Below, one piece after another: positions 4,976-21,430 of a stretch of 64,000 bases of DNA. This DNA is from a virus. The DNA lies in IMG/VR virus record IMGVR_UViG_3300035703_000020, positions 62,001 to 126,000 of that record; one strand, 5' to 3'. Position numbers and translations under genes: made by a program. The notes beneath the pieces are model-generated. The model worked only from the letters and a program-made list of their open reading frames with translations, was not told where the DNA came from and searched no databases. Numbering within the stretch: position 1 is the stretch's first letter; the number at the start of each line of letters is the position of its first letter.

Positions 4976-5407
4976 ATGGCCAAAACCCTTTTCGGGCCTG
5001 GTGTCATCGTCACCTCCCAGTGGCTGAACGGCGCGCGCGACATCAAGTTCGACGGAGCCGACCTCGACTGGCACTACCCGCCGCTCAACGCGAGCGACAT
5101 CCAGCGCGGCGGCGAGGGCGGCCTGGACAACGTCTACGTCACGCTCAACACCGACCAGACGTACGGCTCGACCCCCGTCGTCGGCCCGAAGAGCTTCATG
5201 GGGCCGGTCGCGTTCGGCGATCAGGCCAACACGAACCCCAACTACGCGCCGCTCTCCTGGAACACGAACGCCAAGTTCAACCAGGGCGGCACGGAGCAGA
5301 ATTTCACGACCAAGTTCTCTCAGCTGACGGACGCCGACGTCGTCACGAAGGCCGTCCTGACCGAGCGCATCGCCAACTTCCCGATCATCGACGAAGGCTC
5401 CTTCTGA
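4976..5407 (+). CDS. Uncharacterised virion protein upstream of baseplate wedge
   Basis: 143 residues with no family I recognise. It is rich in Asn, Gly and Thr, low in Cys, and has no signal peptide or membrane segment. The C-terminus reads P-I-I-D-E-G-S-F, one of several proteins in this block that end in a D/N-x-G-x-F/Y motif. The segment D-A-D-V-V-T-K-A-V-L-T-E-R resembles the T-K-x-Y-V-D linkers of fibre proteins. It starts a transcription unit after the terminator and is separated by one base from the baseplate J-like gene, so a baseplate or short-fibre role is likely. Confidence 0.5.
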   Translation: MAKTLFGPGVIVTSQWLNGARDIKFDGADLDWHYPPLNASDIQRGGEGGLDNVYVTLNTDQTYGSTPVVGPKSFMGPVAFGDQANTNPNYAPLSWNTNAKFNQGGTEQNFTTKFSQLTDADVVTKAVLTERIANFPIIDEGSF

Positions 5408-8492: not shown

Positions 8493-10159
8493 CCGAAGCA
8501 CTCCCACAGTCGCAGATAGGGCCGCTGGCAACGACCCTCTACGCCGAGACGCAGCCCGTTGTAAAATTCCTCAACCCCGACGCAGCGAGGGTCATCGGCT
8601 TCTCGCCCGTCCCCACAGTCTGGGGGAGGGCGACCGGACGCCCCATATACGACCGCCTGCCGTCCGCGAGCGAGGCCTACGTCACAGACTACGAGGCCGG
8701 GAACAGGGTCAAGATCTTCATTGGCGACCAGAACGTCGCCACCGGCTCGGGCACGCTCCAGGTCGGAGCTTGGCAGCCCGATCCAGGCATCCTGGTCGTC
8801 CAGAGCGGCACCCTCGTGTGGAGGAACGGCCCGGTCGACGTCGAAGCCCTCGCGATCAAGCTCTCGGCCCTCAACGAGGGCGGCGGGCTGCAGGACGGCG
8901 AGTACCAGGTCGGCTACATCATGCGGTACGAGGCGGACACGTCCGCCAAGTACAAGGAGTACAAGGTCGAGGACTACTCCCTGGCCGCCAGCGCGACCGT
9001 GTACGGCGCGACGGCCGCCGCCGAGCAGTACCCGGTGGAGGTGGCGTTTACCGACGAGCTCGACACGAGCTGGAGGCCCTCGGACAGCGGGTACGTCGGC
9101 GGTTACGACGACGGCCAGGCGCTCATCCTCGACTTCACGCAGCCCGTCAAGGCCGAGAGGTTCACGCTGACCGCCTCGGCGGTCGAGTACGCCACCGCGA
9201 AGTGCTCGGCCTACTGGTCCGACGACGGCATCATCTGGCACCTCGACGACAGGGTGTGGGAGCCCAAGGGCGGCCGGTGGGACATCACCGTGTCCACGCA
9301 GGAGCGCCATAGGTATTGGCGCCTGTACTTCTGGTCCGGCGTCGTCGACGTGCAGCAGTTCGCGTACACCGGGACCGCGCTGTACGCCGACCAGCGCCGC
9401 ACCGGCGCGGTGTCGGTCGCGGAGCCGTACCTGGACGAGCTCTACGAGCAGGTCGACGGCGCGCACATCATGCTGGCCGCGATCGAGGTCCGCGGCAACG
9501 AGGTCGTGCGCGTCGAGGACTACCGCCTCTCGCAGATCACCTACCAGCAGTTTCAGCCGGTGGCGTCCTGGATCACGTCGTTCCAGGACGAGTCGCTGCG
9601 CAGGTACTTCACCGACGTGGAGAAGTACGCGGAGCGGTGGATGGCCCCTCCCACGGCGGCGTACGGGATCTACGACGAGCTGCTGTACGACAACACGTTC
9701 GAGATCGGGTCAGACCTCGACTATCCGAGGTTGGAGCTGCCGTCGGTGGTCCGCCTCGAGGCCGGGTACTACTTCACGTACGACGACATAGACATCCGGA
9801 TAGACGGGGAGCAGAACTACTACCAGAACCCGGTCCTGCTCGACATCCCGACGCCGGAGATAACGACGGAGACCGGCATCCCGATCGCCACGACCGACAA
9901 CCGGGCCCTCGCGATCGACCGGCCAAGGTCGACGATGATGTACTCGTTCAAGGGTAAGAGTGATTCGCTCGGCCTTGCGACCAACCCCGGCGATCTCCAG
10001 ATCCAGGGCGATGAGGTCACCGTGTACGAATCGTCAAGCGCGATCGCACCGTACCACGTGACCAACGTCGCGGCCCCAGAGGACGACAGCGACCTGTCCA
10101 CGAAAGCGTACGTGGACGCCGCACTCATCGTGAATATGGACAATGGCGCATACGACTGA
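8489..10159 (+). CDS. Baseplate-associated protein with F5/8C-like carbohydrate-binding region
   Basis: 556 residues. About residues 190-300 resemble a discoidin / F5/8 type C jelly roll: L-D-T-S-W-R-P-S-D-S-G-Y, L-I-L-D-F-T-Q-P-V-K-A-E-R-F-T-L-T-A-S, Y-W-S-D-D-G-I-I-W-H and H-R-Y-W-R-L-Y-F-W. Such domains bind glycans, so surface recognition is plausible. The last ~40 residues (E-D-D-S-D-L-S-T-K-A-Y-V-D-A-A-L) form the T-K-x-Y-V-D fibre module, and the protein ends M-D-N-G-A-Y-D. It is translationally coupled upstream by ATGA and overlaps the next gene by 17 bases. The exact baseplate position is unknown. Confidence 0.6.
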   Translation: MTEALPQSQIGPLATTLYAETQPVVKFLNPDAARVIGFSPVPTVWGRATGRPIYDRLPSASEAYVTDYEAGNRVKIFIGDQNVATGSGTLQVGAWQPDPGILVVQSGTLVWRNGPVDVEALAIKLSALNEGGGLQDGEYQVGYIMRYEADTSAKYKEYKVEDYSLAASATVYGATAAAEQYPVEVAFTDELDTSWRPSDSGYVGGYDDGQALILDFTQPVKAERFTLTASAVEYATAKCSAYWSDDGIIWHLDDRVWEPKGGRWDITVSTQERHRYWRLYFWSGVVDVQQFAYTGTALYADQRRTGAVSVAEPYLDELYEQVDGAHIMLAAIEVRGNEVVRVEDYRLSQITYQQFQPVASWITSFQDESLRRYFTDVEKYAERWMAPPTAAYGIYDELLYDNTFEIGSDLDYPRLELPSVVRLEAGYYFTYDDIDIRIDGEQNYYQNPVLLDIPTPEITTETGIPIATTDNRALAIDRPRSTMMYSFKGKSDSLGLATNPGDLQIQGDEVTVYESSSAIAPYHVTNVAAPEDDSDLSTKAYVDAALIVNMDNGAYD

Positions 10160-10349
10160 GGTAGTTTCCGCGGACGTCCAGGTGACTGGCGTCCTCGACA
10201 TGCGCACGAACCGCATCACCGGGCTCGATCTGGACCTCGACTTCTACCCGCAGCTCCCAGAGGACGGCGCGAGCAAGAAGTACGTCGACTTCACGCGCAA
10301 CGCGATCATAGAGGCTCTGCCAGCACTCGTCAACAACGGGACGTTCTGA
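10143..10349 (+). CDS. Short fibre-module protein (68 aa)
   Basis: 68 residues: M-R-T-N-R-I-T-G-L-D, then P-E-D-G-A-S-K-K-Y-V-D and a C-terminal N-N-G-T-F. This is the common fibre element 'N-N-x-I-T-N-L ... A-T-K-K-Y-V-D', here as a free-standing gene. It is a close structural copy of the C-terminus of the preceding protein, which it overlaps by 17 bases. It is probably a small spike or linker component; the function is inferred from the module only. Confidence 0.6.
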   Translation: MAHTTEVVSADVQVTGVLDMRTNRITGLDLDLDFYPQLPEDGASKKYVDFTRNAIIEALPALVNNGTF

Positions 10350-10353
10350 AGAG

Positions 10354-13300
10354 ATGCCTCGCCAGATATTTGATGTAGAGCAATACGAACTCCGCGGGAC
10401 GCTCCCGCAGACCTACACCGAGGGCCAGAAGACGGTTCTCAACAGGGTCGTCTCGCGCGTAAACGGCCAGCTCGACTGGACCGCCCAGCTGCTCGGCTTC
10501 AACGGCCCGCGCTACTGGGGCAACGCGTCCACCGACGCCGAGGGCAACTACGAGTTCATCGGCCTGCCGCAGACGGTCGCGGAGAAGCGCGCGCTGCAGG
10601 TCGGCGCGTTTGGCGTCTACAGTAAGGACAAGCCGTACGAGTCCTGGCCGGCGCCGTTCAACCGCAAGGCCGTCGGCGCGTCGGCCGACCTGACCTTCTC
10701 GGCGGAGGACCGCGACGGGCAGGTAGCCGTCTGGCCGTTCGCCCAGGACCGCAATTTCACCTTCGAGAAGTCCCCCTACCTGGTGGTGGGCGGGGCCTAC
10801 ACGTTCGACCAGCTCGTCGACGTCTCGGTCTTCAACGCCGACCCCGACACGGTCGAGGTCATCCAGGATCTCGACCAACGCGTGACGCGCGTCCGCGTCC
10901 TGAGCGACGACGTCCAGTTCATCTCGGTGTTCCTGACCGAGTCGCCCGACGCCAAGCCCTTCACCTTCACCACGCGAAAGTGGGAGGACCCGTCCGACTG
11001 GGACGACGACCAGGTCCGGGAGCAATTCCTAGGCGCCTGGGGCAGCAAGGGCAACCAGCTGTCGATGCACTTCGCGTTCGACGCCCTCGACCTGCACGGC
11101 TTCAACGAGGTCGAGGCGCTCTCGCTCGACAAGATCACCGGGGCGCTCAAGATCGAGCGGCTGCTCGGGCTGATCGGACTCAAGCCAGGGCCGATGGCCG
11201 CCCTGGTCTCCGCCCCGTACGCGTTCGAGGTCGAGGGCTGCGAGGTGACGGGGCCCTTCAGCCCGTCCGTCGACTTCGAGTCCACGTCGGTCACGATCAC
11301 CACCAATGACTTCTTCGACATCGTCACGGAGGACGGCCGCGTCATAGCCACCGACGAGGGGTCGTGCGGCGTCCAGGATTACATCTTCATGCTCACCGAC
11401 GGCAACGACGGCGAGGGCGGGCTGGTAGACTTCGACAACGGCTTCTTCCCCGACGAGGGGAACGTGGGCTGCTTCACCGATAACGGGACGCTCGAGCTGC
11501 CGGGGTCGGCCACCGGCGAGATGAACAACGGGGAGTACGAGCTGATCGGCGACTTCCCGACAGAGGCCAACGGGATATACGACCAGAACCCACTCTCGAT
11601 CTGCCAGACAGACCCCGACACAACCCCGACAGGTACCCTGTCCAACGGCGAGTACCCGGGCGACTACTACCCCAACCCCGGCGGCTCGGTCGATAACGAC
11701 GGCACCTACGACATCAGCATCGAGCAGCTGATGACGGAGGACCTGAGGCTCATCTCCGCCAACAACGAGTCCTTCGACTACAGCGGCTGCTACAGGGAGC
11801 CCGACGAGACCTACGGGGTCTGCGAGACCTGCGACTACACCCTCACGCTGCGCCAGACGTACGACACGACCCCGAACGAGATCGCGACGGACCCCGGCCC
11901 CGAGGCCAGCATCCCGATCGGACTCAACGGGTTCATGCGCGACGAGCCGATCTCCTGCGGGCTGGACAACGGCACGTTCGAGGACGCGGTCCTGACGAAC
12001 TTCTACCTCGACCGCGCGCGGACGGTCCTCTGGGAGGACATCGTGCCGGTGAACTCCTTCACCGTCGAGACAAGGGCGCAGGGCACGTTCACCATCACCG
12101 AGGTCGGGGGCCTGTTCGAGTTCCTGGCGCGCGACCGCTTCGTGGCTATCCCACCGCCCTCAAACGCTACGAACGGCGGGGTCGTCGACGACGGCTCCTA
12201 CGGGGATCTCAACCCGAACGCGCTGACGCGCTTCGACCTCAACCTGCCGGACCAGGACATCTTCGGGGGCATCCTCGACCTGGGCGACCTGTCGCCCGCG
12301 GTCGGCACCACCGCGTGGGACTGGGGCGTCGTCTACACGGTGCCGTTCAACGGCGTGGTCGACCAGCAGCAGGCGGACTACGCCATCTACGACGGCATCT
12401 ACGACCAGGACCCGGCGCTCAACTGCCCCGAGCCGCAGGCGCCCGAGATCAACATTAACTACTTCGACCTGGTCACCGACGTGCTCGGCGAGCCGGGCCC
12501 CATCCTCGTGTCCGACTCCGGGGTGGACAACGAGATCGTGCTCACCGCGTCCGGGGACGAGGAGGACGGGTACGACGGGATGACCATCGCCTTCGACGGC
12601 CTGGAGCTCGCCGAGCTCGCCTTCGACTACGAGGCGAAGACGCCGTTCGCGATGACGGAGTTCCCGTCCATCGAATGGGTGGTCGACCTGCAGTTGAACA
12701 ACGGGACCTTCTACCCCGTATCCGACCAGGGGGCGTGGATGGGCACCGACGACGGAGACTTCGACGAGCGCATGGAGTTCGTGCAGCTCGGCTCCATCGC
12801 GTCCGAGTTCGACTCAGAGCTCGACGCCATAGGCCTGAACTTCCGCGGCGGCCTCCTGACCTTCGACGACGGCGAGTTCGACCAGCTCGTCGAGCCCAAC
12901 TGCGACTTCGAGGGCGGCAGCCCGTGCGCGCTCGTCGACGGAGGGGTCCTCATCGAGGGCGTCGACTACAATGAGCCCGACACGAACTGCTTCGAGGAGT
13001 GCGGCAAGATCGACAGCGGCCTGTACCAGTTCTACGGCTTCATCCCGCCGGCCTTCCCGGTCATCGACGGCCAGGGGTCGCGGGTCATCCCGGACTCCTG
13101 CGTCCTGTACGACAACTCGACCTACGACCGCGTCCCGCGCCCTGACGTGGCCGGGGGCGGTTACTACTCGTGCACCACGTACGACAACTCCGTCTACCCG
13201 TTCACCGGGATCTACGACTGCAACCTCGAGGAGTGGGGCGAGTTCGGGCTCAGCCCGAGCGGCGTCTACGCGGACCAGGGCGAGTACACCGACGCGTTCC

Positions 13301-15411
13301 CCGAGAGCTGCGCGCCGTGCGGCTCGGACGAGGAGGGTTTCGACTGCTACGTCAACAACGGCACGATGGAGGACGTGATCCCGTCCTTCACGGCCGACGA
13401 GGGCTTCTACGACAACGCGTTCGAGATCTGCACGCCGTGCACCGCCGAGCCTGAGCCCGTGGTGCCGTGCTACGTGCCGCCCGTCCGCGTGCGGCTGGAC
13501 AAGGTCGTCTATGCCAGCCCCCTCTGGAAGTTCAATCCCTCGGTGATGAATTCCACCACGCCCCTGAGGGTGTGGAAGAACCACGTGCTGGAGGTGGTGG
13601 ACGACGCGTCGGACGAGATCTCGAACGAGAACGTCTCAGAATTCCTGGAGTCCAAGGCGTACCACAACGCGCTCGTTGCCGACCACAACACAGGGCCGGA
13701 GCGGGAGAACTCCTACCGGTACTTCGTGCGCCTCCCGGCCGAGTACTCGAGGAACAGCCGCCAGTGGAACAAGGCGACGAACATCGTCGGCTCGTACGGC
13801 TACTTCTCCTCGGTCTACCCGCTCGCGGACACCGCGGTCAGGCCCTACGACCTGCGCCCGTACCTGTACGACGACGTCTACTGCCAGTGCGCCGCGGACC
13901 TGCCAGACTACGCGATCTTCTACCAGGAGGACTACCTGGTCTCGACGATCAAGGAGGCCCGCATCAACGCCCAGGCCGGCTTCGCCGACTCGCGCATAGA
14001 GTTCGAGGACGCGGCCGAGGTCTTCCCGTTCCAGGCAGGGCTCATCACTGAGTACGACGCGTACGACGAGCGCGAGATAGTTAACGGCGACGGCGAGTGG
14101 GCGGGTACCTACTTCAAGTGGCAGCGGCGTGGCCCGCTGACCGGCTACCTGATCACGGACGTCCTCGACAGCCGCATCCGCGCGGTGGAGTACTCCGAGC
14201 AGCCGGAGGGCGACTACTCGTTCATCAAGGCGCCGAACACGGAGTTCCCGGACGACGTCGACGTGGCGAACTTCGCCAACTACGTGGTCGGCTACGCGTA
14301 CTTCACCGCCGACCTGTCGGCGGCGGACGAGCCCGTGTTCGACCCGGCCGTCAAGTACAGCTGGCGCGAGTGCAACATCCCCAAGTGCGACGACGCGACG
14401 CCGGTGTTTGCCACGGACATCACCAATCTGGAGATCCTCACGGAGGGCGGCTTCAGTATCGGCATCGGCGGCCCGCCGGTCTACGTCGAGGGCGCGGTGG
14501 AGTCTCGCACGGCGTACCTGCTGAACAGGTGCGAGAAGTTCGAGGCCCCGGAGGTCAACATCCAGCAGATCATCGAGCAGCCGTTCTCAGGCGGCAGGCC
14601 GGGTCAGCAGGGGCCCGCCCCGCGGCCCACTGCTCCCCCGTCTGTGTCCATCGACGCCCTGCCCAACGGAGAGCTAAGCGGCCCGGCGCTTTTGACCGGC
14701 TCCGTCTCCGACGCCGGCTCCGTCGACCTCTGGATAGGGACCGACGTGCAGGCGGCCATCTCCGGCTCCTCGTGGTCGTACCAGATGACCAACGAGGACT
14801 TCAACGCCATGCTCGCCCTCGCGCAGGGCAACCCGGCCGAGTTCACCATCCAGGCGACCGCGACGTCGGCCACCGACGCCCGCAGCGCTAAGGCGCGCTA
14901 CAAGGTGGTCGTCAAGCAGCCGGCGGCGCAGGCCGACTTCTTCGTCATCACCTACGGCTTCACCAACGGCAGCGACCTCGACACGCGCACCGGCTTCGTC
15001 GACCCGGTGATCCCTGGATACGTGGGCTGGGGGCAGGGTACCAACCTTGCCCAGCTGACCTGGGGCGGAGACAACACGGGCACGGGCGTGGAGAGCGTCC
15101 TGTTCGACCGCGACACCTTCGAGGCCCAGAACCCCGGCCGCACGACGGTCTCGCTCGACCTCAGGGCGATGTGGTACGGCCCCGTCGGCACCGACCCCGT
15201 GACGATCACCGTGACATCGTACAAGGGCGGCCAGATGGTCAAGAGCGGCCTCACGTGGACCAACCCGACCGCGGAGGCGACCTACACGAACTTCACGTCG
15301 ACCGCGAAGGTCATCAACCTGTTCTCGCGCCAGGGCAGCAACATCGGCCAGCGGGTGGCTATAATCGATCTGGACTACGTGGCCGGCACGGTAAATTACA
15401 GGGACTCGTGA
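10354..15411 (+). CDS. Giant structural protein with about 20 D-N-G-x-Y/F repeats
   Basis: 1685 residues, acidic. The start (Q-T-Y-T-E-G-Q-K-T-V-L-N-R-V-V-S-R-V-N-G-Q-L) is helical and linker-like. Residues ~355-1030 hold about 20 copies of a short [DN]-[ND]-G-x-[YFL] motif (for example D-N-G-T-L, N-N-G-E-Y, D-D-G-S-Y, D-Q-G-E-Y) and many cysteines in C-x-x-C pairs. Residues ~1000-1400 are Tyr-rich. From ~1420 comes a Gln/Pro-rich linker and two beta-sandwich-like regions, the first Ig-like (P-S-V-S-I-D-A-L-P-N-G-E-L-S-G-P). No enzyme motif is visible. It lies between wedge and OB-fold spike genes, so it is probably a baseplate or long side-fibre protein. Confidence 0.6.
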   Translation: MPRQIFDVEQYELRGTLPQTYTEGQKTVLNRVVSRVNGQLDWTAQLLGFNGPRYWGNASTDAEGNYEFIGLPQTVAEKRALQVGAFGVYSKDKPYESWPAPFNRKAVGASADLTFSAEDRDGQVAVWPFAQDRNFTFEKSPYLVVGGAYTFDQLVDVSVFNADPDTVEVIQDLDQRVTRVRVLSDDVQFISVFLTESPDAKPFTFTTRKWEDPSDWDDDQVREQFLGAWGSKGNQLSMHFAFDALDLHGFNEVEALSLDKITGALKIERLLGLIGLKPGPMAALVSAPYAFEVEGCEVTGPFSPSVDFESTSVTITTNDFFDIVTEDGRVIATDEGSCGVQDYIFMLTDGNDGEGGLVDFDNGFFPDEGNVGCFTDNGTLELPGSATGEMNNGEYELIGDFPTEANGIYDQNPLSICQTDPDTTPTGTLSNGEYPGDYYPNPGGSVDNDGTYDISIEQLMTEDLRLISANNESFDYSGCYREPDETYGVCETCDYTLTLRQTYDTTPNEIATDPGPEASIPIGLNGFMRDEPISCGLDNGTFEDAVLTNFYLDRARTVLWEDIVPVNSFTVETRAQGTFTITEVGGLFEFLARDRFVAIPPPSNATNGGVVDDGSYGDLNPNALTRFDLNLPDQDIFGGILDLGDLSPAVGTTAWDWGVVYTVPFNGVVDQQQADYAIYDGIYDQDPALNCPEPQAPEININYFDLVTDVLGEPGPILVSDSGVDNEIVLTASGDEEDGYDGMTIAFDGLELAELAFDYEAKTPFAMTEFPSIEWVVDLQLNNGTFYPVSDQGAWMGTDDGDFDERMEFVQLGSIASEFDSELDAIGLNFRGGLLTFDDGEFDQLVEPNCDFEGGSPCALVDGGVLIEGVDYNEPDTNCFEECGKIDSGLYQFYGFIPPAFPVIDGQGSRVIPDSCVLYDNSTYDRVPRPDVAGGGYYSCTTYDNSVYPFTGIYDCNLEEWGEFGLSPSGVYADQGEYTDAFPESCAPCGSDEEGFDCYVNNGTMEDVIPSFTADEGFYDNAFEICTPCTAEPEPVVPCYVPPVRVRLDKVVYASPLWKFNPSVMNSTTPLRVWKNHVLEVVDDASDEISNENVSEFLESKAYHNALVADHNTGPERENSYRYFVRLPAEYSRNSRQWNKATNIVGSYGYFSSVYPLADTAVRPYDLRPYLYDDVYCQCAADLPDYAIFYQEDYLVSTIKEARINAQAGFADSRIEFEDAAEVFPFQAGLITEYDAYDEREIVNGDGEWAGTYFKWQRRGPLTGYLITDVLDSRIRAVEYSEQPEGDYSFIKAPNTEFPDDVDVANFANYVVGYAYFTADLSAADEPVFDPAVKYSWRECNIPKCDDATPVFATDITNLEILTEGGFSIGIGGPPVYVEGAVESRTAYLLNRCEKFEAPEVNIQQIIEQPFSGGRPGQQGPAPRPTAPPSVSIDALPNGELSGPALLTGSVSDAGSVDLWIGTDVQAAISGSSWSYQMTNEDFNAMLALAQGNPAEFTIQATATSATDARSAKARYKVVVKQPAAQADFFVITYGFTNGSDLDTRTGFVDPVIPGYVGWGQGTNLAQLTWGGDNTGTGVESVLFDRDTFEAQNPGRTTVSLDLRAMWYGPVGTDPVTITVTSYKGGQMVKSGLTWTNPTAEATYTNFTSTAKVINLFSRQGSNIGQRVAIIDLDYVAGTVNYRDS

Positions 15412-15412
15412 T

Positions 15413-16054
15413 ATGAAGGGCGGGCGCAATCTGGAACTCCTCGGCAGGCTGCTCAACAACTACAACCAGGCCGCCCAGTACGCCCGCGATAACGCGGGCA
15501 AGCTGCAGGAGACCGTCGGCCGCGTGGTCGACGTCGATGACCCGAAGGAGGAGGGGCGCATCAGGGTCGTGATCAACGAGGTCGACCCGAAGGTGCTCGA
15601 GGCGCAGGGCTTCCCGCAGGGCGACGCGAAGGAGACGGAGAGCGACTGGATCGAGCCGAACCCCGCGTTCAAGGGCAAGCAGCCCAAGTCGCTCGTCGGC
15701 CTGAAGGTGAAGATCCAACCCAAGCAGGGCGACCCGAACCAGATGGTGTTCGGCGACGTCGTGTACGACAAGGCCGACGACCCAAAGGCCAAGATGCCGG
15801 ACTCGTCGAACATGACGAGGCTCCCGGTGTACAAGGCGGGCGAGCTACCGCCGGCGACCAAGGAGAACGTGGGCTGCGTGATCGTCGAGAGTGGCGGGCC
15901 GCAGGGCTACGACTGGCTCATGGTGTGCCTCAACCGCGGCGGTTACAAGTGGGTCAGGCACATCGATAGGCTGCACATCCACCAGAGCCAGGAGCCTGAC
16001 AGCCACGGGGACAGCGAGGGCAAGGTCAACGACGACGTCGAGGCGACGACCTGA
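15413..16054 (+). CDS. Baseplate spike / hub OB-fold protein (gp5/gpV-like)
   Basis: 213 residues. After a short N-terminal helix comes an OB-fold signature: V-G-R-V-V-D-V-D-D-P-K-E-E-G-R-I-R-V-V-I-N-E-V-D, as in gp5/gpV/VgrG spike bases. A second beta part (G-L-K-V-K-I-Q-P-K-Q-G-D-P-N) follows, and the tail is polar. There is no lysozyme domain and no visible triple-stranded beta-helix repeat, so a separate tip protein or a plain adaptor is likely. Start ATG is 1 base after the upstream stop. Confidence 0.65.
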   Translation: MKGGRNLELLGRLLNNYNQAAQYARDNAGKLQETVGRVVDVDDPKEEGRIRVVINEVDPKVLEAQGFPQGDAKETESDWIEPNPAFKGKQPKSLVGLKVKIQPKQGDPNQMVFGDVVYDKADDPKAKMPDSSNMTRLPVYKAGELPPATKENVGCVIVESGGPQGYDWLMVCLNRGGYKWVRHIDRLHIHQSQEPDSHGDSEGKVNDDVEATT

Positions 16055-18575: not shown

Positions 18576-19250
18576 ATGACCCTCGCGGCTGTTCAAAATC
18601 TTCGCTCCTTCACGCAGGACGAGCACCCCACGGACCTGGAGCCGGGCCAGATCGCCTTCAATCTGGCTCAGGGCAACATCAACCTCAGCGAGGGCGACGC
18701 CAACATCTACATGTACGTCGGCAACCAGTCCGACATCAGGATGGACGAGGACGGCACGGTCCTCGTCGGCGGCGGCACCGCGGGCAAGGGCTGGATCAGG
18801 TACAGTCTCCGCGGGACTAGGGTCACGGGCGACTCCATCTACGGCGATCTGGACATCATCGGCGCTAGCGTAAAAATACGGAAGAGCGGCCCCGACTACG
18901 CCGAGCTCGTCATCCCAAAAGTAGCCGACACACCGTCCTCGAGCTCCGAGGTCGGGTCGATCCGTTGGAATTCCAACTTCGGAAAGCTACAAGCGTGGGA
19001 CGGCGCCAAGTGGGACAACACCTCGAAGGTGTTCGTGGACACCGTAGCGCCGGCAAACCCCTCGAACGGCGACCTGTGGCTCAGCCCGTCGCCGATAGCC
19101 ACCCTCTACGTCTACGTCGTCCCGACATCGGGCCCCGCGGCGTGGGTGGTTACGTCCAGCGCGGCGTCGGTCACTGCCCTGCAGCCCGGCAACGGCGTGA
19201 CGGCCAACGCCTCCAACGAGATTGACATCATCGACCAAGGACCCTTCTAA
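18576..19250 (+). CDS. Tail-fibre protein
   Basis: 224 residues. The N-terminal box (V-Q-N-L-R-S-F-T ... L-E-P-G-Q-I-A-F-N-L-A-Q) is a divergent form of the one at 19256 and 45241 that probably mounts fibres on the baseplate or on each other. Residues ~125-160 hold the S-I-R-W-N-S-N-F-G-K-L-Q-A-W-D-G-A-K-W repeat. The end (D-I-I-D-Q-G-P-F) shares the D-x-G-x-F terminal signature with several proteins of this block. Confidence 0.68.
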   Translation: MTLAAVQNLRSFTQDEHPTDLEPGQIAFNLAQGNINLSEGDANIYMYVGNQSDIRMDEDGTVLVGGGTAGKGWIRYSLRGTRVTGDSIYGDLDIIGASVKIRKSGPDYAELVIPKVADTPSSSSEVGSIRWNSNFGKLQAWDGAKWDNTSKVFVDTVAPANPSNGDLWLSPSPIATLYVYVVPTSGPAAWVVTSSAASVTALQPGNGVTANASNEIDIIDQGPF

Positions 19251-19255
19251 AAGCC

Positions 19256-21430
19256 ATGGCAGTTAAGATTCAACATCTACGCTCCGACGTAGCAAGCAAG
19301 AGGCCTACAGGCGCGGGTCTGTTGGCCGGTGAGATCGCGCTCAACATCGACAGCGGTACCCCGGGTGCCTTCTTCAAGGACGAGCTCGGTGGTATCATTA
19401 AAGTCGGCCCCGCTGAGGTGGGCAGCTCCGCCCCCAACGCCTCTCCGGCGTCTGGCGGGTCGAGCGGCAATACCACCGGTGAGTTTTGGTACGACACGTC
19501 TAACACCGGGGGCAACAGCCAGGCGGCGCTGAAGGTCTACAACGGCTCGGCCTTCGCCTACATCGGCAAGGTGACCATCGGCAGCACGAACATCGAGCTC
19601 GGCGCCGCCGCGACCACGACGATCACCGGTTTGACGTCGCTGACCTCAGCCACGCTCGACGCGACAACCAGCGTCGATCTGGAGAACCAGGCGGACCTGC
19701 GATTCTTCGAGGCCACGGCCAACGGCTCGAACTACGTCGGCTTCCAGGCGCCATCGGCCATCACGACGAACGTCCTGTGGACGCTCCCCGGCGCCGATGG
19801 TACGGCCAACCAGGTCCTGACCACGGACGGCGCGGGCGCCCTGAGCTGGACCGAGGCCCGCACCAATGACATCACGCAGGGCAACACCAGTGTCACCGTC
19901 ACCGACACTGGTGTCGACGGCACGGTGACCTTCGTGACCGAGGGCTCCACCCGCTGGACGATGAGCTCCGCGGGCCACCTCCTGCCAGGCGCCGACTCCA
20001 CCTACAACATCGGCGCGAGCGGCAACGAGGTCAGCAACATCTACGTCGACACGCTGAACGTCGGCGCGATCACCGCCAGCGGCACCCTGACGCTCAACGG
20101 CGACGTCGACCTGGGCAACGCGACCACCGACACCGTGACCTTCACGGCACGGGTCGACTCCAACATCCTGCCCTCCGCCGACAACACCTACACCCTCGGC
20201 ACCGCGGCCAACCGCTGGTCCGAGGTGCGCGCGACCACCCTCTACGGCACGGTCAACGAGGTCACCGTCGTCAAGTCGATCACCGGCGACAGCGGCACGG
20301 CGACCCCGACCGCCCAGACCTTCAAGATCTCCGGCGGCACCGGCCTGACGTCCACCGCCGGTAGTACCACGGTCACGATCGACCTGGACAACACCGCGGT
20401 CACGCCGGCCGCCTACGGCTCGGCCTCCCAGGTGGCGACCTTCACCGTCGACGCCCAGGGCAGACTGACCGCGGCCGCGAACACGTCGATCAGCATCACG
20501 GCGTCGCAGGTCTCCGACTTTAACACCGCCGTCCGGACGAACCGCCTCGACCAGATGGCGGCCCCAACCGCCGCGGTCTCGCTGAACAGCCAGAAGATCA
20601 CCAACCTGGCGACCCCGACCCTCGACACCGACGCCGCCAACAAGGGCTACGTCGACAGCGTGGCGCAGGGCATCGACGTCAAGGGCTCCTGCCGCGTGGC
20701 GACCACGGCCGCGCTGCCCACGGTCACCTACGCTAACGGCTCCTCCGGCGTCGGCGCCACCCTGACCGCCTCCGCGGTTGGCGTCCTGACGATCGACGGC
20801 GTGGCGACGGTCCTCGGCGACCGCATCCTGGTGAAGAACCAGGCGTCGCAGCTGCAGAACGGCATCTACACCGTGACGACGGCCGGCGCGGCGGGCACGG
20901 CGTTCGTGCTGACCCGCTCGACCGACATGGACCTGGCGGCCGAGTTCCCCTCGGCGTTCACGTTCATCGAGGAGGGCACCACCAACGCCGACAGCGGCTG
21001 GGTGTGCACCACCAACGCCCCGGTGACGGTCGGCACGTCGAACATCACGTTCGACCAGTTCTCCGGCGCCGGCCAGATCACTGCCGGGAACGGCCTCTCG
21101 AAGACCGGCAACACGCTGGACGTCAATGTCGACTCCCGCGCGTCCGGCACCAAGACGACCGCGATCGTGTCCGACGAGGTCCGGATCGACTCGGCGTGGA
21201 CCGGCCAGACGTCCCTGACGACTCTCGGCACGATCACGACGGGCACCTGGAACGGCACCATTATCGGCCGGGCCTACGGCGGCACCGGCGTGGACAACAC
21301 CTCCATCGCCCAGAACTACGCCTACCTTGGCCCCAACACCGGCGGTGCTGGCACGCCGACCTGGCGCGAGATCCTGACCAGCGACATCGCCCCGGTCACA
21401 GGCGGCAGCTTCGACGCCGGCACCTACTGA
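19256..21430 (+). CDS. Large tail-fibre protein
   Basis: 724 residues, Thr/Ser/Ala/Gly-rich and almost lacking Cys. It carries the fibre N-box (I-Q-H-L-R-S ... K-R-P-T-G ... L-L-A-G-E-I-A-L-N-I-D-S-G-T-P-G-A-F-F), the L-R-F-F-E-A-T-A-N-G-S-N-Y-V-G-F-Q-A-P module (~150-200), repeated L-P-S-A-D-N-T-Y-T-L-G-T-A-A-N-R-W strands, the K-I-T-N-L ... A-N-K-G-Y-V-D linker (~440-465) and a Y-G-G-T-G-V-D-N-T-S element. This architecture is a trimeric receptor-binding fibre. The protein ends G-S-F-D-A-G-T-Y. A terminator follows. Confidence 0.75.
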   Translation: MAVKIQHLRSDVASKRPTGAGLLAGEIALNIDSGTPGAFFKDELGGIIKVGPAEVGSSAPNASPASGGSSGNTTGEFWYDTSNTGGNSQAALKVYNGSAFAYIGKVTIGSTNIELGAAATTTITGLTSLTSATLDATTSVDLENQADLRFFEATANGSNYVGFQAPSAITTNVLWTLPGADGTANQVLTTDGAGALSWTEARTNDITQGNTSVTVTDTGVDGTVTFVTEGSTRWTMSSAGHLLPGADSTYNIGASGNEVSNIYVDTLNVGAITASGTLTLNGDVDLGNATTDTVTFTARVDSNILPSADNTYTLGTAANRWSEVRATTLYGTVNEVTVVKSITGDSGTATPTAQTFKISGGTGLTSTAGSTTVTIDLDNTAVTPAAYGSASQVATFTVDAQGRLTAAANTSISITASQVSDFNTAVRTNRLDQMAAPTAAVSLNSQKITNLATPTLDTDAANKGYVDSVAQGIDVKGSCRVATTAALPTVTYANGSSGVGATLTASAVGVLTIDGVATVLGDRILVKNQASQLQNGIYTVTTAGAAGTAFVLTRSTDMDLAAEFPSAFTFIEEGTTNADSGWVCTTNAPVTVGTSNITFDQFSGAGQITAGNGLSKTGNTLDVNVDSRASGTKTTAIVSDEVRIDSAWTGQTSLTTLGTITTGTWNGTIIGRAYGGTGVDNTSIAQNYAYLGPNTGGAGTPTWREILTSDIAPVTGGSFDAGTY

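Follow-up and report, generated by a model that had tools for sequence, protein, structure and literature searches.

The source of the sequence is a 149,878-bp virus record, positions 62,001-126,000 of which make up the 64,000-nucleotide window analysed here, and the virus is placed in the Synechococcus-phage S-CBWM1 group. In this window, which yielded no tRNA or Rfam matches, a block of genes on the plus strand follows the order 4976, BW2, 8489, 10143, P0001 and 15413 (Table 1). The large protein P0001 was given by the initial annotation as a frame of 1685 residues at 10354-15411, and these limits proved correct. The BW2 gene is kept in relatives, and orthologues of ORF 10143, 59-70 aa in length, end in DNGTY, NNGTF and similar sequences. 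The start codon of ORF 10143 sits within the terminal D-N-G codons of ORF 8489. Residues ~60-338 of the latter constitute a large domain inserted in the presumed N-terminal half of BW3, and 1 of 26 members of the ORF 8489 family gave an F5/8 type C match (E 1.4e-6).

Table 1. Features of the baseplate and fibre gene block, in coordinates of the window
Feature	Coordinates	Strand	Remarks
143-aa protein	4976..5407	+	ends I-I-D-E-G-S-F, motif 5390-5404; orthologues VVDEGFF, VIDEGSF, VVDNGTY
BW2, T4 gp6-like baseplate wedge (Baseplate_J), 1027 aa	5409..8492	+	PHROG 6 E 3.5e-23; Pfam Baseplate_J E 9.7e-12
ORF 8489, probable N-terminal half of a split BW3, 556 aa	8489..10159	+	profile matches to PDB 8kea_c gp32; ends MDNGAYD
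ORF 8489 core blocks, residues 38-60 and 338-400	8600-8668, 9500-9688	+	~280-aa domain in between
C-terminal motif D-N-G-A-Y (then D) of ORF 8489	10139..10153	+	overlaps ORF 10143 start codon
ORF 10143, 68-aa fibre-like protein	10143..10349	+	ITGLD...ASKKYVD...VNNGTF; motif 10332-10346
P0001, probable C-terminal half of a split BW3, 1685 aa	10354..15411	+	core profile matches to gp32
P0001 BW3 helical core, part 1, residues 20-90	10411..10623	+	aligns to gp32 68-102
P0001 beta-sandwich interrupting the helical core, residues ~105-208	10666..10977	+	AlphaFold2 pLDDT mostly 85-93, confident
P0001 BW3 helical core, part 2, residues 205-262, G-A-W-G-S-K-G-N	10966..11139	+	aligns to gp32 98-123
P0001 lineage-specific insertion, residues ~290-1045	11221..13488	+	D-N-G-x-Y/F repeats, 20 Cys; motif span 11434-13410; sister clade without this insertion
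P0001 conserved C-core, residues ~1062-1345	13537..14388	+	1113-1137 align to gp32 152-175, marginal
P0001 exchangeable C-terminal domain, residues 1525-1682	14926..15399	+	PHROG 24956
Possible hub/spike protein	15413..16054	+	next gene after P0001; Phage_base_V E 0.019, below cut-off; PHROG 430 E 0.0025
224-aa protein	18576..19250	+	ends I-I-D-Q-G-P-F, motif 19233-19247; orthologues IIDQGPF, IIDQGSF, LIDTGSF
724-aa tail-fibre-type protein	19256..21430	+	ends S-F-D-A-G-T-Y, motif 21413-21427; PHROG 8745 tail fibre and PHROG 2647

ORF 8489 and P0001 were both found to be related to gp32, the wedge protein of Anabaena phage A-1(L). The family profile of ORF 8489 matches gp32 (PDB 8kea_c), and the HMM of its core scores 30.2 bits over gp32 6-69, while none of 2000 shuffles exceeded 8.9. 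Once its beta-sandwich is excluded, the N-core of P0001 matches gp32 68-102 and then 98-123 (12.1 versus 8.3 bits; by hhalign, 37.5 for this core alone versus 20.7 for the top of 200 shuffles), and the match of the C-core to gp32 152-175 is marginal, with 1 of 200 shuffles scoring higher. When the spliced core profile of both ORFs was compared with the whole PDB, A-1(L) gp32 was the top match (E 6.5e-5, the next being at 0.38), and hhalign aligned the spliced core end to end over gp32 6-123 with a probability of 96.7%. Since the joined cores find gp32 first, ORFs 8489 and P0001 are best read as two BW3 halves, and on profile evidence they very probably constitute one BW3 of the T4 gp7/P2 gpI type, the wedge identity being strong for 8489 and good for the P0001 N-core. 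Relatives that show both ORFs 8489 and 10354 likewise have the BW3 core divided between them, and the gene order, with BW2 (Baseplate_J/gp6) followed by 8489 and P0001, parallels that of gp31 followed by gp32. Neither P0001 nor 8489 nor their spliced core matched Pfam Tail_P2_I (PF09684), and neither of the two ORFs reached any Pfam wedge family directly; this weakens formal membership and not the wedge relation, and gp32 is assigned to Tail_P2_I by a score of 18.7, just under the 20.6 cut-off. The earlier description of the large protein as an assembly backbone is borne out insofar as P0001 would be a wedge component of BW3 type, a class carrying fibres, and needs revision insofar as it would be half of a split BW3 instead of an anonymous backbone.

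Foldseek gave no convincing wedge match. The search with the model of P0001 residues 1-1150 was discarded as wedge evidence because it reflects the N-terminal beta-sandwich alone, and that with an AlphaFold2 model of fair quality (pLDDT 75) of the 685-aa minimal relative L038 returned mainly Ig-like domains and S-CBWM1 gp84. Kinship to the A-1(L) fibres gp33/gp34 was also considered and rejected.

In A-1(L), gp32 forms a (gp31)2-gp32 wedge, and its loop Val129-Glu151 together with gp31B anchors the shoulder of the long tail fibre (LTF) (PMC10966104). The gap between the two gp32 matches of P0001 corresponds to gp32 124-151, from which it follows that the repeats would occupy the position of this fibre-holding loop, with an insertion of ~750-850 residues in P0001 versus a gp32 loop of ~25 residues. 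This placement is probable from the alignments, the insertion point being good on the N-terminal side and marginal on the other side, and such a position of the repeats within a BW3 would lend support to the idea of an assembly or docking function. Likeness to A-1(L) gp32 (PDB 8KEA, PMC10966104) extends to a helical core that is related in sequence and follows the same order, to the location of the gene after BW2 and to the agreement of the LTF-holding loop 129-151 with the insertion position; however, gp32 is one 191-aa chain with no inserts and no D-N-G repeats, whereas here two ORFs total 2241 aa. Enlargement of BW3 by inserted and C-terminal beta-rich modules is also seen in Gp119 of the Bacillus phage Vp4 (PMC11406892), although Gp119 is unsplit and has recognisable CBMs as inserts instead of D-N-G/Cys repeats. 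The wedge position would be that of Milano BW3 and T4 gp7 in the (BW2)2-BW3 heterotrimer, and the available part of the Milano description (PMC10811340) presents a cysteine-linked, fibre-contacting wedge, with neither a repeat arm nor a shared C-terminal motif in that part. A narrow literature search found no precedent for a split BW3 or for ~800 residues of repeats inserted at the fibre loop; what would be new here is the split, hypertrophied BW3 with a lineage-specific C-terminal motif, the BW3 wedge itself being already known. The BW3 wedge, which A-1(L) makes as one chain, would thus be able to exist split over two genes with an insert of ~800 residues at its fibre-holding loop, which also suggests a likely function for a family of large proteins so far unannotated or, in S-CBWM1, called lectin.

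The repeat unit of P0001 can be written as hydrophobic-[DN]-[NDEQS]-G-x-[YFL]-[DE]. Nine copies of the strict form [DN][ND]G.[YFL] are found in P0001, all within residues 361-842, when 0.38 are expected, and 2000 shuffles of the region 355-1060 gave at most three; with a relaxed motif the number rises to 13-17 copies, reaching residue 1019. The recurrence reported by the initial annotation is hence real, while its count of about 20 requires very loose variants; the spacing is irregular overall, as had been proposed, though distances of 14-17 residues and about twice that are preferred across relatives. The abundance of cysteines pointed out at the same time is also found, with 20 of the 27 Cys of P0001 falling in the repeat region, but there are only three C-x-x-C pairs (0.6 expected). 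Many of these cysteines are invariant in close relatives and ~6 nearly so across the clade, and several of them persist, along with motif positions, where identity is down to 32-48%. The copies differ at the third positions of their codons, which rules out a DNA-level repeat and means that conservation lies in the peptide. By simple longest-ORF calling, no other ORF in the whole 149,878-bp record contains an internal motif cluster; the repeat region gave no matches in Pfam, PHROGs or NCBIfam, and its best E in a phage tblastn was 0.6. In a close relative (L002:6655-11871), ~70 additional residues hold a further three copies of the motif, and hence the repeats can expand or contract. In the AlphaFold2 model of residues 1-1150 the repeats are unfolded, with pLDDT <50 across most of them, from a shallow alignment of 32 sequences with only ~11 spanning the repeat region; such a prediction would be expected of an arm that is flexible or folds only with a partner, or else of too little information. 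This monomer model, with the repeats at pLDDT <50, shows no incomplete fold for a donor strand to complete.

The same motif terminates the proteins of 4976, 8489, 10143, 18576 and 19256, exactly the five neighbours for which this had been claimed. They belong to the structural block and are mostly fibre-like, and in 8489, 10143 and 4976 the motif is preceded by a fibre-like segment, for example DLATKAYVD..L. Its presence at 5 of 20 neighbouring C-termini corresponds to p ~2.5e-10 when the frequency of this pattern inside those 20 proteins is taken as background, and a scan of the whole 149,878-bp record by simple longest-ORF calling found these five only. Both the terminal and the internal form are thereby confined to one 17-kb genome block. 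Across the family loci, the motif terminates 64 of 687 ORFs versus 3 expected, a count in which orthologues are not independent. Orthologues keep the terminal motif while their bodies diverge (SLDNGKY and ALDDGFF for 8489, ADNGTY and LLDNGNF for 10143, SFDAGTY, SFDAGTF and SFDGGSF for 19256), which argues against coincidence. A lineage-specific C-terminal motif accompanies the probable split BW3. As a general cyanophage feature the motif was rejected, a scan for D-x-G-x-Y/F-stop giving no excess in P-SSM2, S-PM2, Syn9, S-CRM01, S-SSM7, HTVC008M and T4. In the marine Kyanoviridae Melnitz-3 and Mosig, some tail-fibre proteins end in IDGGTYS, IDGGSF or LNGGTF, and a wider C-terminal motif may exist among marine myovirus fibres. 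At L086:6646-8891 (Melnitz-3) and L087:6864-8831 (Mosig), small neighbours share such endings with the fibres (LNGGTF, IDGGTYS, INAGAF, IDGGSF).

Relatives of P0001 comprise S-CBWM1 gp84 and 63 IMG/VR loci, and none were found in bacterial and archaeal genomes. They have the N-terminal part in common, plus the C-core where complete, and exchange the part beyond residue ~1400. In the BW2 tree the loci form two well-supported groups, the monophyly of both hinging on the midpoint root. Clade A contains the repeats, the fibre-like tail of 8489 and ORF 10143 together, whereas the sister clade B has a different P0001 middle without the motif and lacks the 8489 tail and ORF 10143, a co-occurrence that is confined to one clade and is effectively one event. 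The terminal motif of 4976 is present in both clades, and since phages of the sister clade have a repeat-free P0001, that C-terminus does not need the repeats. The isolated Synechococcus phage S-CBWM1 falls in the repeat-free group. Its gp84 (L001:14992-18621), annotated as a concanavalin A-like lectin/glucanase, is homologous to P0001 over the N-terminal and C-core regions, but differs by its repeat-free middle, by a C-terminal domain to which its lectin-like character is restricted and by the lack of adjacency to an 8489 partner; its remainder is a P0001-type wedge half, remote from that partner.

A split BW3 with an enlarged fibre-holding arm, for which the motif serves as a connector, explains these observations with a probability of about 0.5. 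The insertion would form the enlarged arm at the baseplate edge, the holding of fibres being presumed, and D-N-G-x-Y/F-D/E would be a short connector peptide, with many copies on the arm and one at the end of each partner. Joining could proceed by homotypic pairing of strands or by way of a common acceptor, and the joined parts might be locked by disulfides. That the motif joins parts at all is put forward tentatively, at somewhat less than even odds. As P0001 and its partners carry the same motif, a plain key-and-lock does not follow, and direct docking needs homotypic pairing or else a third acceptor; for the candidate binding of motif to repeats, a shared third acceptor is as possible as direct homotypic docking. 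Parts of this scheme have precedents in A-1(L), where the C-terminal tail of gp16 adds to the tube-initiator sheet (PMC10966104), in the disulfide-joined wedges and fibres of Milano (PMC10811340) and in the CBMs inserted in the BW3 of Vp4 (PMC11406892). A baseplate that uses one peptide code throughout, in which the split wedge arm bears ~15 D-x-G-x-Y/F connectors and several fibre and accessory proteins carry one copy at the C-terminus, clipped like-with-like or via a common acceptor, is a more doubtful extension. The shared motif, which is lineage-specific, hints at a common way of joining tail parts and gives a handle by which the assembly of baseplate and fibres could be tested in these viruses.

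The strongest competitor, though unlikely, regards the arm as a flexible acidic spacer in which D-N-G-x-Y is a favoured beta-turn, with the C-terminal motifs having arisen separately in fibre-type proteins, where they cap the last strand. The low pLDDT over most repeats agrees with this, as do the terminal motifs of the repeat-free sister clade and the similar fibre endings in marine Kyanoviridae, phages in which an arm homologue was not found. However, the motif counts far exceed what composition gives, several Cys and motif positions are conserved at low identity, and the restriction of both motif forms to a single 17-kb block is left unaccounted for.

Binding of host-surface glycans by the repeat arm, its motif being unrelated to the C-termini of the neighbours, appears improbable. 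Vp4 Gp119, an 831-aa BW3 in which CBMs are both inserted and C-terminal, does bind the host surface (PMC11406892); in P0001 a beta-sandwich is inserted and the C-terminal domain is exchangeable, with a lectin-like domain at that place in S-CBWM1. However, no CBM or lectin family was found in the repeats, which AlphaFold leaves unfolded, and five neighbours ending in the same motif would go unexplained. To a similarly low degree it is likely that the cysteines are decisive and that the arm disulfide-bonds wedge and fibre subunits, locking the baseplate as in phage Milano, where disulfides occur among BW1-BW3 and to its fibres (PMC10811340). The number and conservation of the cysteines in the repeat region, and a cysteine-bearing C-terminal extension past the motif in some 4976 orthologues, would fit such a lock, but the five terminal motifs in the window are without cysteine and the C-x-x-C count is barely above chance. 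Finally, it is very improbable that the conserved gene-end codons are translation signals (Shine-Dalgarno or an overlapping start codon for the next gene) with no protein motif. The ATG of ORF 10143 does lie inside the D-N-G codons of 8489, and AAGG-like stretches within the codons of 4976 and 18576 precede the next start. However, a gap of ~80 bases comes after 19256, no start codon coincides with the end of 10143, the terminal codons of sister-clade 4976 orthologues, such as GACAACGGCGAATAC, lack an SD-like core although the peptide class is unchanged, and the internal copies are not covered.

In S-CBWM1 gp177 (L085:6001-6546) and some sister-clade 4976 orthologues, the terminal motif is followed by the cysteine-bearing extension VDNGFYYSIENPACNNYSVNGTSLVICPA, which resembles internal units of P0001. 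The C-terminal domain of P0001 is replaced by another type in the loci L005 and L010 and in S-CBWM1 and is absent from L007 and L012, and this domain (PHROG 24956) also occurs in crAss-like phage tail proteins and in S-SSM7 and Stenotrophomonas phages.
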